From: Alkalicella caledoniensis
GTDB taxonomy: Bacteria > Bacillota > Proteinivoracia > Proteinivoracales > Proteinivoracaceae
Assembly (NCBI RefSeq): GCF_014467015.1
Contig: NZ_CP058559.1
Location: forward strand, 3,038,001 to 3,102,000
DNA: 64,000 nt
Direction: 5' to 3'
In this document: positions 32,609 to 61,338 of the stretch, one piece after another
Numbering within the stretch: the first letter of the stretch is position 1
Layout: each line of letters begins with the position of its first letter
Made by a program: the position numbers and the translations under genes
The notes under the pieces: generated by a model
What the model saw: only the letters and a program-made list of their open reading frames with translations
Databases searched by the model: none
Told to the model about the DNA's origin: nothing

Positions 32609-34060
32609 ATGATACAAAATCAACAGTCAATGATTTTAAGTCCATATATGGAGATATATAATTTGGTCGTTCCAAAGGAAAATTTACTCCGTAGAATTAA
32701 TGATCTGGTCGACTTCTCTTTTGTTTATGGTGAGCTTAAAGATAAATATTGCCATAATAACGGTAGAAATGCTATCGATCCCATTCGCATGTTTAAGTAT
32801 TTATTACTAAAAACGATTTATGACTTGTCGGATGTAGATGTGGTGGAACGCTCAAAATATGACATGTCCTTTAAGTATTTTCTAAATATGGCTCCTGAAG
32901 AGTCGGTGATAGAGCCAAGTTCTCTTACGAAATTTCGAAAACTACGCTTAGAAAATATAAACTTATTGGATATGCTTATCAATAAAACTGTTGAAATAGC
33001 CATTGAAAAGGAAATCATCAAAAGTAAATCCATTATCGTGGATGCCACCCACACAAGAGCGCGCTACAATCAAAAATCCCCCAGAGAAATTCTGATGGAT
33101 CGGTCTAAAAAGCTGAGAAAAGTTATTTATCAGATAGATGAAACTATGAAGGATAAATTTCCTACCAAAAACACAACAGATGCCTTAGAAGCTGAAATAG
33201 ACTATTGCCACAAGCTTATTGAGGTGGTTGAAAAGGAAGATGCTTTTGCTCAATATCCAAAAGTAAAGGAACAATTGAACCTTTTAAAAGAATCAGTTGC
33301 TGATGATATTGAACACTTACAAATATCTCAGGATCAAGATGCAAGAATAGGTCATAAAAGTGCCGATACATCATTTTTTGGTTACAAAACCCATATTGCC
33401 ATAAGCGAAGAAAGAATTATTACAGCTGCAACAGTTACAACCGGAGAAAAAAATGATGGGAAACAATTAGAAACACTGATAGAAAAAAGTGTAAAAGCTG
33501 GGATGAAAGTTGAAACTGTTATCGGTGATGCTGCATATTCTGAAAAAGGCAACATTGAATATACAAAAGAGAAAAAAATAAAATTAGTCGCCAAATTAAA
33601 CCCATCTGTAACACAAGGTTTCCGAAAAAAAGAAGATGAATTCGATTTTAATAAAGATGCTGGAATGTATATATGTAAGGCTGGCCATATGGCTATACGT
33701 AAAGCTCGCCAAGGGAAGAAAAAATTTTCCACTAATCAAACAGACACATACTATTTTGATATAGAAAAGTGTAAGGTATGCCATTTAAAAGAAGGGTGCT
33801 ATAAATCTGGAGCTAAAAGTAAGACCTATTCCGTAAGCATCAAATCTGACGAACATACCGAACAGGCGAAATTCCAAGAAAGTGATTACTTTAAAGAAAA
33901 ATCTAAAGAGCGCTATAAAATAGAAGCAAAAAATAGTGAATTAAAACATAGACACGGGTATGATGTTTCAAAATCCTCGGGTCTAATTGGCATGGAGATG
34001 CAGGGAGCTATGTCAATATTTACGGTAAACCTAAAAAGAATTTTAAAAATAATGGATTAA
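32609..34060 (+). CDS. IS1182-family transposase
   Basis: 483 residues. ATG 32609 follows GGGTGGG; an in-frame GTG at 32600 would use a poorer site. The N-terminal DUF772-like region contains LRRINDLVDFSFVYGELKDK and DPIRMFKYLLLKTIYDLSDV. The DDE acidic residues are probably Asp in SIIVDATHTRARYN, Asp in VIGDAAYSEKGN and Glu in YKIEAKNSELKHRHGYD. A cysteine-rich segment (CKVCHLKEGC) precedes the last motif. The gene looks intact and is probably active. Confidence 0.94.
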   Translation: MIQNQQSMILSPYMEIYNLVVPKENLLRRINDLVDFSFVYGELKDKYCHNNGRNAIDPIRMFKYLLLKTIYDLSDVDVVERSKYDMSFKYFLNMAPEESVIEPSSLTKFRKLRLENINLLDMLINKTVEIAIEKEIIKSKSIIVDATHTRARYNQKSPREILMDRSKKLRKVIYQIDETMKDKFPTKNTTDALEAEIDYCHKLIEVVEKEDAFAQYPKVKEQLNLLKESVADDIEHLQISQDQDARIGHKSADTSFFGYKTHIAISEERIITAATVTTGEKNDGKQLETLIEKSVKAGMKVETVIGDAAYSEKGNIEYTKEKKIKLVAKLNPSVTQGFRKKEDEFDFNKDAGMYICKAGHMAIRKARQGKKKFSTNQTDTYYFDIEKCKVCHLKEGCYKSGAKSKTYSVSIKSDEHTEQAKFQESDYFKEKSKERYKIEAKNSELKHRHGYDVSKSSGLIGMEMQGAMSIFTVNLKRILKIMD

Positions 34061-38249: not shown

Positions 38250-38505
38250 TATATCAAGAGCCGAAGATAGGAAAAGTAAGTTTAGCTATGGCTTCAGCGA
38301 GCGGACACAGAGTGGAAGGTCCGCAGTCTAACTTAACTGAAACGCAACCTGGAGGCTGTCTTAAGAAACTAAGTATTAAGACACGGCAATCCCCGTTATA
38401 GGATACGAGTGGCTAGCCTATTTAGGCTAGTAATTAGAGTGGTACCGCGGATAATATATCCGTCTCTTTTGTTAAAGAAAGAGGCGGATTTTCTTATTTT
38501 TATAA
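38250..38505 (+). promoter_or_regulatory. T-box leader (tRNA-sensing riboswitch)
   Basis: The T-box sequence AGAGTGGTACCGCGG is at 38436-38450. It is followed by a terminator whose arms, ATCCGTCTCTTT (38458-38469) and AAAGAGGCGGAT (38478-38489), lead into T-rich sequence. Stem I is recognisable from AGCCGAAGATAGG to CCTGGAGGCT, with the AGCGAGC..GTGGAAGGTCCGC apical part. The specifier loop reads CTGAAACGCAACC. After GAA the codon could be ACG (Thr, 38342-38344) or the overlapping CGC (Arg, 38343-38345); I cannot decide. Uncharged cognate tRNA would allow read-through into the permease gene. Confidence 0.93.
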
Positions 38506-59470: not shown

Positions 59471-59533
59471 AAATAGCTAACTGAATATATGAATAAACAG
59501 ACTTACTTGTTTTTAAGTAAGTTAGCTAATAAA

Positions 59534-59603
59534 ACCCGTAGTCAGACCATTTACGGCAGTCTGGTAGAAACTTATGGACCGTATCTCCAAAATTATACGA
59601 GTG
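59534..59603 (-). promoter_or_regulatory. Purine riboswitch aptamer, guanine class
   Basis: Read on the minus strand, the three-way junction is clear. P1 arms are ACTCGTA and TACGGGT. The P2 loop carries GGAGATACGGTCC. The junction reads TTTCTACC, P3 is CAGACTGCCGTAAATGGTCTG-like with the conserved CCGTAAA loop, and the closing J3/1 segment is ACTA. The discriminating base is C, as in guanine-sensing xpt-type aptamers, not the U of adenine sensors. Confidence 0.92.
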
Positions 59604-59768
59604 TAACTTATTCAATTTTGATAAATCATATTCTATTACAATACATAGAATAAATCAAGGGTTATTTAACTTTTCCATATTATTCTTAAAATTAGGAGGA
59701 ATTTCAGCTATATAAGGAGAAAAGTATTTAGGTACAAACGGATGTTTTGGAAGACAAAGGAGGTTTAT

Positions 59769-60850: not shown

Positions 60851-60874
60851 ATAGCATCTGCATTTGCAGGTGCT
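60851..60874 (+). repeat. 24-base direct repeat, left copy
   Basis: It starts ATAGCATCTGCA and ends GCAGGTGCT and is itself hairpin-forming. The identical right copy is at 61148-61171. Together with flanking bases it was probably the terminator behind the small membrane protein gene before insertion. Confidence 0.9.
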
Positions 60875-61147
60875 TTCAGAATGATGAAAAGTCATTTTTT
60901 AGGAATGTCGCATATTAAACGCTGTACAAAATTCTCCGTCGAGACTTAAGGCTTCTATCTAAACTCCAGAAGGGTACCGCTCCAATTCACCGTCCATGGT
61001 AAGTGGAGCTCTCGAAACGTCCTGTTTCTCGCCCCTTCTTCCGTTTATCTATTCAGCTCTTAAGTCTATCTCCTCGAATTAATTGTACTGCTTTTTAATA
61101 TACACATCTAGGGTCAATGACTTTGTCTTAGGTTTGTCTACAAGCTG
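60875..61147. mobile_element. 273-bp non-coding structured element between 24-base direct repeats
   Basis: No protein-coding frame is convincing. Subterminal inverted repeats AAAGTCATT (60888-60896) and AATGACTTT (61116-61124) bracket a folded core: AGACTTAAG (60942-60950) pairs with CTTAAGTCT (61059-61067). Inside are hairpins GCTCCA/TGGAGC (60979-61009) and GAAAC/GTTTC (61014-61028). It could be a small non-autonomous mobile element with an RNA-like core. The family was not recognised; the structure is visible, but mobility is inferred from the duplicated flanks. Confidence 0.45.
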
Positions 61148-61171
61148 ATAGCATCTGCATTTGCAGGTGCT
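61148..61171 (+). repeat. 24-base direct repeat, right copy
   Basis: Identical to 60851-60874. With the next bases it forms a complete terminator-like hairpin (ATAGCATCTGCA / TGCAGGTGCTAT) with a TTCCTTA tail. Confidence 0.9.
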
Positions 61172-61338
61172 ATTTCCTTATATAAAGGTGCTTCAGACTA
61201 TTGTTTCTATGTATTTACAAGGTCATGAAGTATTATTTTATTGCATTTTTTGCAGGAAAGCAAGAACCACTTATAGAAATTAAATGTAACAGTATTGAAC
61301 AAAATAAACATAATAAATCAAAGGTGGATTTGATATAT

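Follow-up and report, generated by a model that had tools for sequence, protein, structure and literature searches.

Insertion sequences of the IS1182 family (NF033551), which includes IS1272, share with the group of elements described here both their terminal repeats and the palindromic kind of their targets. IS1272 targets hairpins, several of which are confirmed terminators (PMC4923244), and is reported to leave no target duplication, the stem-loop being deleted or replaced (PMC4923244; PMC5678879). One route in the model of its transposition (route b) joins the ends to the 5′ feet of stem-loops and thereby leaves a copy of the hairpin on either side (PMC5678879). Bacterial MITEs are a second point of comparison: they are short, gene-less and present in many copies, and they have IS-type terminal repeats and duplicate their targets, all of which applies to the element described here. 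Small RNAs derived from MITEs have been reported in Coxiella (review, PMC10969869). A third comparison is with TwoAYGGAY RNA (RF01731), which was listed in 2010 as a probable RNA that is probably not cis-regulatory (PMC2864571) and which Rfam classes as cis-regulatory; binding of CsrA by this RNA has been proposed (PMC4333381).

The element at this locus differs from IS1272 in that it duplicates the hairpin, has no transposase and carries an RNA, and from bacterial MITEs in that the RNA family of its core is also met with outside the element, and in that the core has no match in the related IS elements examined. The best explanation overall, and one that we regard as likely, is a non-autonomous element moved by IS1182 and carrying an RNA of TwoAYGGAY type that probably binds CsrA. 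Fold and mobility are well supported; expression and binding of CsrA we infer. The literature covered, mostly without subscription papers, on TwoAYGGAY/RF01731, MITEs and CsrA, IS1182 targets and clostridial CsrA sponges contained no link between TwoAYGGAY and a transposon in the passages available.

The 271-bp element and its IS1182-type ends

The window is the 64,000-nt piece of DNA that was analysed. Sequence comparison of the window copy places exact 24-nt direct repeats at 60851–60874 and 61148–61171, just as an earlier sequence-only reading of this DNA had described them. Lengthened to 26 nt, the repeats contain one mismatch, and the element then occupies 60877–61147 (271 bp, minus strand), between a left (60851–60876) and a right (61148–61173) target-site copy of the same palindromic, terminator-like hairpin, to neither of which a strand is assigned. 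The terminal inverted repeats lie at 60877–60891 (plus strand; a divergent copy of CAGACTGATGACAAA that falls outside the strict end pattern) and at 61133–61147 (minus strand; CAGCTTGTAGACAAA, which matches the end pattern at 3099133–3099147 of contig C1). Further inside, the motif AAAGTCA at 60888–60894 (plus strand) pairs with a partner read from the sequence at 61118–61124 (minus strand), and the matching alignment columns pair as well, in agreement with the subterminal inverted repeats of the earlier reading. Its statement that the insert holds no open frame stands too: the ORF scan of the window copy found none of 60 aa or more inside the 271 bp, and the element therefore has no transposase of its own. 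The claim that the joined flanks rebuild one perfect terminator holds in part. The joined empty site is a long palindrome with 13 pairs on the dyad and a stem that extends 8 bases past the repeat, but it is imperfect. Since its T-tail is short and the terminator scan of the window does not have it among its predictions, it is termed terminator-like only. The whole stretch from repeat to repeat folds far better than its shuffles (z = −8.9; 0 of 100 shuffles as good).

Copies of the element are numerous, and their counts are lower bounds, as 40 candidates were scored per genome in the DNA search and six in the RF01731 search. The genome of origin (G000; 3.70 Mb, one contig) gave at least 41 matches, ten of which, the window copy among them, cover at least 256 nt of the query at 92–100% identity. 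At least 41 matches were likewise found in G002, which belongs to another genus of the same family, 32 of them spanning positions 14–268 of the 273-nt query at 78–80% identity; three further genomes of this family yielded no match in the DNA search. Elements also occur in G121, from a second family, and as one copy in G035, from a third, where the same ends are accompanied by a 20-bp palindromic repeat. The genome-wide and cross-genome search that the sequence-only reading had proposed thus returned copies in both settings; of the two outcomes that this reading would have taken as refuting it, a lack of further copies and a lack of covariation, neither came about. The small non-autonomous mobile element with an RNA that it had offered as one possibility is upheld by the copies in several genomes, by covariation and by the IS1182 ends. 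Beyond that reading go the mobilising family IS1182, the TwoAYGGAY-like character of the RNA, its likely strand and the secondary IS1182 insertions in one loop.

The ends of the 271-bp element fit the pattern CAGNNTGNNGACAAA, which was counted 36 times in G000, 72 times in G002 and at least 112 times in G121, against 1, 1 and 2 for a reversed-pattern control. A partial IS1182 transposase gene of G002, located at a contig end, is preceded by the end CAGACTGAAGACAAA, adjoining a palindrome, and relatives of this transposase, many of them distant, are present in 124 of the 398 genomes of the phylum. Both ends lie within three mismatches of CAGACTGTAGACAAA, 1.52–1.73 kb apart, at 11 of 30 loci with a related transposase; four of these 11, when scanned, scored 454–474 bits against the NCBI IS1182 model NF033551 (cut-off 270). 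Terminal inverted repeats are accordingly common to the element and to a group of IS1182 elements. No TwoAYGGAY match was obtained in 12 IS1182 loci (nine of the shared-ends group and three of the secondary IS described below), and no intact IS1182 with the ends of the element was recognised in the examined loci of G000, G002 and G121. Because its ends match those of IS1182-family elements of other genomes that mostly also sit in palindromes and are devoid of the core, the 271-bp element is, judged by sequence comparison, a non-autonomous IS1182-type element (MITE).

Thirteen copies in G000 are about 1.93 kb long, have both ends in common with the short form and enclose a 499-aa IS1182 transposase. 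These shared ends could indicate that an autonomous IS1182 of 1.9 kb, with its gene in the RNA loop, gave rise to the 271-bp copies by internal deletion, a reading to which hardly any credence can be given. The 499-aa transposase sits in a 1.66-kb element of its own, which has the ends CAGACTGTGTG...CACACAGTCTG together with a 4-bp repeat (ACGT or a variant of it), and this element is found at seven unrelated sites as well as in loop A of the 271-bp element, in both orientations there (7 and 6); the short form, moreover, exists without interruption in another genus. The separate IS1182, its own ends and its 4-bp repeats rule out the 1.9-kb copies as an autonomous parent, and an intron-like or IStron reading falls with it on the same evidence. 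The coding sequences of this IS are 97–100% alike, while divergence from the query reaches about 12% among the 271-bp copies around them; this suggests that the IS entered the one loop several times independently. Among the 20 G000 copies of the 499-aa IS1182 that were examined (L224–L230 and L009–L021), 13 are in this same RNA loop. Another locus of this genome (L261) shows GGTAGGGGGG and has a 42%-identical IS1182 nested in the element, and the window itself contains another IS1182 transposase, a 501-aa frame at 32645–34048; the genome has five copies of it with equal scores, this one included.

Duplicated palindromes at the insertion sites

The targets were compared in a set of 77 copies, from which G000 L022, L024b and L026–L028, G002 L096, L109, L115 and L120, and the IS locus L239 (at a contig end) are omitted. 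By a set rule, a direct repeat was found in 57 of them, namely 20 of 24 in G000, 25 of 36 in G002, 4 of 6 in G121 and 8 of 11 IS1182 elements, and by the same rule the other 20 have none. Repeats are 16–40 nt long, with group medians of 21.5 to 26; in the IS1182 elements the eight repeats are palindromic and 21–35 nt in length, and of the 66 element copies 49 have repeats of 16–40 nt. In 47 of the 57, the centre of the repeat coincides with the dyad of the palindrome to within one half-step, and self-complementarity averages 0.65 for the repeats and 0.27 for shuffles. The window copy falls outside these 47, since its exact 24-nt repeat misses the dyad by one base; taken as 26 nt, its repeat is centred. 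Thirteen further G121 elements, with ends about 260 nt apart, were picked by their paired end repeats among the matches listed, and all 13 lie between duplicated palindromes, as read from their sequences. In G000 and G002 the flank that precedes the palindrome is rich in A and the one that follows it is rich in T, as in bidirectional terminators, with no clear orientation in their composition, and repeat length is uncorrelated with loop length (Spearman 0.17, p = 0.26). A preference for terminators, which the earlier reading had brought up, is thus matched by copies in G000, G002 and G121 that sit between duplicated palindromes.

Similar hairpins could be neighbours by chance or through local duplication, and the repeats would then be an ordinary pair of similar terminators with nothing mobile between them. 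The same 270-bp unit is nonetheless found between different palindromes at many loci of G000, G002 and G121, and this explanation is close to untenable. Replacement of the IS1272 type, with the stem-loop removed and no duplication, is not what the copies display either, the hairpin being duplicated in the 57 of 77 given above. The observed duplication fits route b of the IS1272 model (PMC5678879), and the present copies would provide dozens of natural cases of a hairpin-duplicating route that the model draws as one alternative.

In the mechanism that we propose, an IS1182 transposase would act in trans on the CAGnnTGnnGACAAA ends, which comparison shows to be common to the element and its IS1182 partners. 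Insertion would take place at a palindromic, often terminator-like hairpin, presumably recognised as a structure, given that comparison reveals the same kind of target in both groups, and the ends would be joined at the two feet of the stem-loop, whereby the hairpin is duplicated. With the hairpin copied to both sides, the upstream neighbour gene would keep its stop signal and the element would come to lie between the two copies; a minus-strand RNA, if transcribed, could have its 3′ end at the copied hairpin. By landing in stop hairpins, a regulatory RNA would be able to spread while doing genes little harm, and a genome could in this simple way accumulate it in many copies.

The structured core and TwoAYGGAY RNA

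The structured core of the window copy, on the minus strand at 60931–61077, matches the RF01731 model over its full length (1–168 of 168) and has the same multi-branch with two hairpins, but its score of 29.1 bits is under the family cut-off of 43. A search at the Rfam gathering cut-off consequently missed the window element; in E-value mode with the full TwoAYGGAY model, a G002 copy scored 42.0 and a diverged G000 copy 37.7 bits. The wider RF01731 search gave up to 45.7 bits in G002, where 3 of 6 scored copies exceed the cut-off, and among the G000 copies listed none reaches it (best 42.0). All 13 of the G121 elements that were found by their ends alone scored 50–61 bits; two further G000 elements in the same scan had no TwoAYGGAY match. 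Relatives above the cut-off therefore include both the homologous G002 copies and the G121 elements, which are built in the same way. The two hairpins of the window core are present in one multi-branch, and the AYGGAY motif is found in one of their loops: loop B, AUGGACGG at 60990–60997 (minus strand), contains AUGGAC, which fits, whereas loop A at 61018–61024 (minus strand), into which the second IS1182 is inserted in 13 other copies, reads CAGGACG.

Covariation was evaluated in an alignment of 42 distinct cores from G000 and G002, with identical ones collapsed and 45 pairs considered; L022, L024b, the 1.9-kb copies, G002 L096, L115 and L120, and also L023 and L025, which contain another insert, are omitted from it. 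Paired cells amount to 99.4%, a figure favoured by the prediction of the tested structure from the same 42-core alignment; both partners have changed in 14 of the 45 pairs, where shuffles average 5.9, and covariation scores 0.125, compared with 0.060 in shuffles. On none of these three measures was any of 500 shuffles as high. Sliding the partners by 1–3 columns lowers pairing to 33–52%, and a measure of further pair types is in no excess over the shuffles (323/500). The closing helix with two inner hairpins of the sequence-only reading, which had named covariation as a check, thereby gains support, with the qualification that the RNA is most likely that of the minus strand. The core alone, folded as minus strand, gave z = −5.5 (0 of 200 shuffles as good). 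In the alignment the two strands fold about equally well (−129.7 and −130.4). Read as minus strand, the aligned cells include 15 of G-U and 4 of A-C, 8 of the 15 G-U cells being in one pair, which leans to a minus-strand RNA. A scan of the element limited to sigma-70-type promoters found no promoter-like site. While the surrounding stems vary, all 42 cores have the same AUGGA in loop B, and 39 of the 42 retain the CAGGACG of loop A. Three G002 cores (L090, L100 and L106) have CAAGACG in loop A instead of CAGGACG and have lost the GGA. In two G000 copies (L023 and L025), a further small structured insert, starting with GTAGGGG and ending with CCCCTAC, is located inside the RNA core. That the core is a folded, TwoAYGGAY-like RNA rather than a remnant of an IS, with the window copy below the family cut-off, is well supported by these comparisons. 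The cargo would then be an RNA of TwoAYGGAY architecture, most likely encoded on the minus strand, with a long closing helix, a multi-branch and two hairpins with GGA loops.

With six candidates scored in each genome, TwoAYGGAY RNA is found in at least 51 of the 398 genomes of the phylum and exceeds the cut-off in 34 of these; none of 14 control genomes gave a match. In 6 of 16 scanned genomes (G246, G223, G061, G112, G295 and G359), an RNA above the cut-off is present with no IS1182 match in either search; in G049, which also has an RNA above the cut-off, IS1182 is absent in one search and weakly matched in the other. No long palindromic repeat was found at 34 TwoAYGGAY loci of G179, G280, G246, G061, G073, G049, G223 and G004, a 33-nt repeat at one G073 locus (L181) not being clearly palindromic. 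In a sample of 30 TwoAYGGAY loci, those of G121 and G035 have IS1182-type ends or palindromic repeats and that of G162 has partial ends; for three loci near contig ends, the one in G002 has both element ends and those in G147 and G367 are without them, the latter lacking its left flank. Most of the examined copies in other genomes are thus without element ends and without a long palindromic repeat. As the RNA occurs without element ends and in genomes without an IS1182 match, the core looks like cargo and not like a component of the IS. Two TwoAYGGAY copies, L124 (G304) and L138 (G359), lie between direct repeats of another kind, 42 and 26 nt long, which may belong to other carriers. The copies at L171–L181 (G061 and G073), judged by eye, look alike within each genome, and their flanks are abruptly different.

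CsrA and the competing readings

CsrA is encoded in 49 of the 51 genomes with TwoAYGGAY RNA, as against 236 of the 347 others (Fisher p = 4e-6, a value that ignores phylogeny, and some of the 347 may hold the RNA). The lists of CsrA-bearing and RNA-bearing genomes were matched by eye, the handles G000–G397 being taken as the same 398 genomes in both. The two RNA-bearing genomes without CsrA are G183 (94% complete) and G236 (75% complete), and G000 encodes CsrA. A simple rule counted 39 GGA-loop hairpins in a set of 24 RNAs, whereas shuffles average 0.66 for each RNA; 14 of the 24 have at least two such hairpins and ten have fewer than two, one of which has none. CsrA-sequestering sRNAs of the CsrB/RsmZ type display GGA in hairpin loops, and the CAGGACG of loop A resembles the CsrB repeat; unlike these sRNAs, the present RNA has only two such hairpins. 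Its GGA loops probably serve to bind, and so to titrate, CsrA, and among single roles this would be the most plausible one. Our reading of the element is that of a probable CsrA-binding RNA spread by an IS1182 transposase. TwoAYGGAY, an orphan family for which the available literature passages mention no tested function, would thereby gain a mode of spread and a testable role. A bolder extension, which we hold to be doubtful, is that of a mobile sponge for a global regulator: each insertion would add a CsrA-binding RNA between stop hairpins, copy number would set the dose of titration, and the TwoAYGGAY family would have repeatedly become mobile cargo.

Two other readings of the core compete with that of a CsrA-binding cargo RNA. 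The core might be a stand-alone small RNA with a function apart from CsrA, captured as a passenger between IS1182 ends; the RNA is indeed also found without element ends, the link to CsrA is built on loop sequence and genome co-occurrence, and the simple rule leaves ten of the 24 RNAs with fewer than two GGA-loop hairpins. Against this stand the near-invariance of the loops while the stems vary and the occurrence of CsrA in nearly all RNA-bearing genomes, and we regard this passenger reading as possible, if on the less probable side. The core might, on the other hand, be folded DNA that is needed in cis, as transposase-binding sites or as a single-strand signal, in which case covariation would stem from DNA hairpins or from template-switch correction of imperfect palindromes. 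Pairing that is mostly Watson-Crick, the nearly equal folding of the two strands and the location of the secondary IS1182 insertions in one hairpin are compatible with such a role. However, the scanned IS1182 elements with the same ends have no match to the core, the RNA exceeds the cut-off in the six genomes named above without an IS1182 match, and the excess of G-U (15) over A-C cells (4) in the minus strand, with 8 of the 15 in one pair, leans to RNA; a DNA function in cis is in our view improbable.

Two known RNA elements of the window scored above their Rfam cut-offs, namely a purine riboswitch at 59519–59620 (minus strand) and a T-box leader at 38255–38470 (plus strand).
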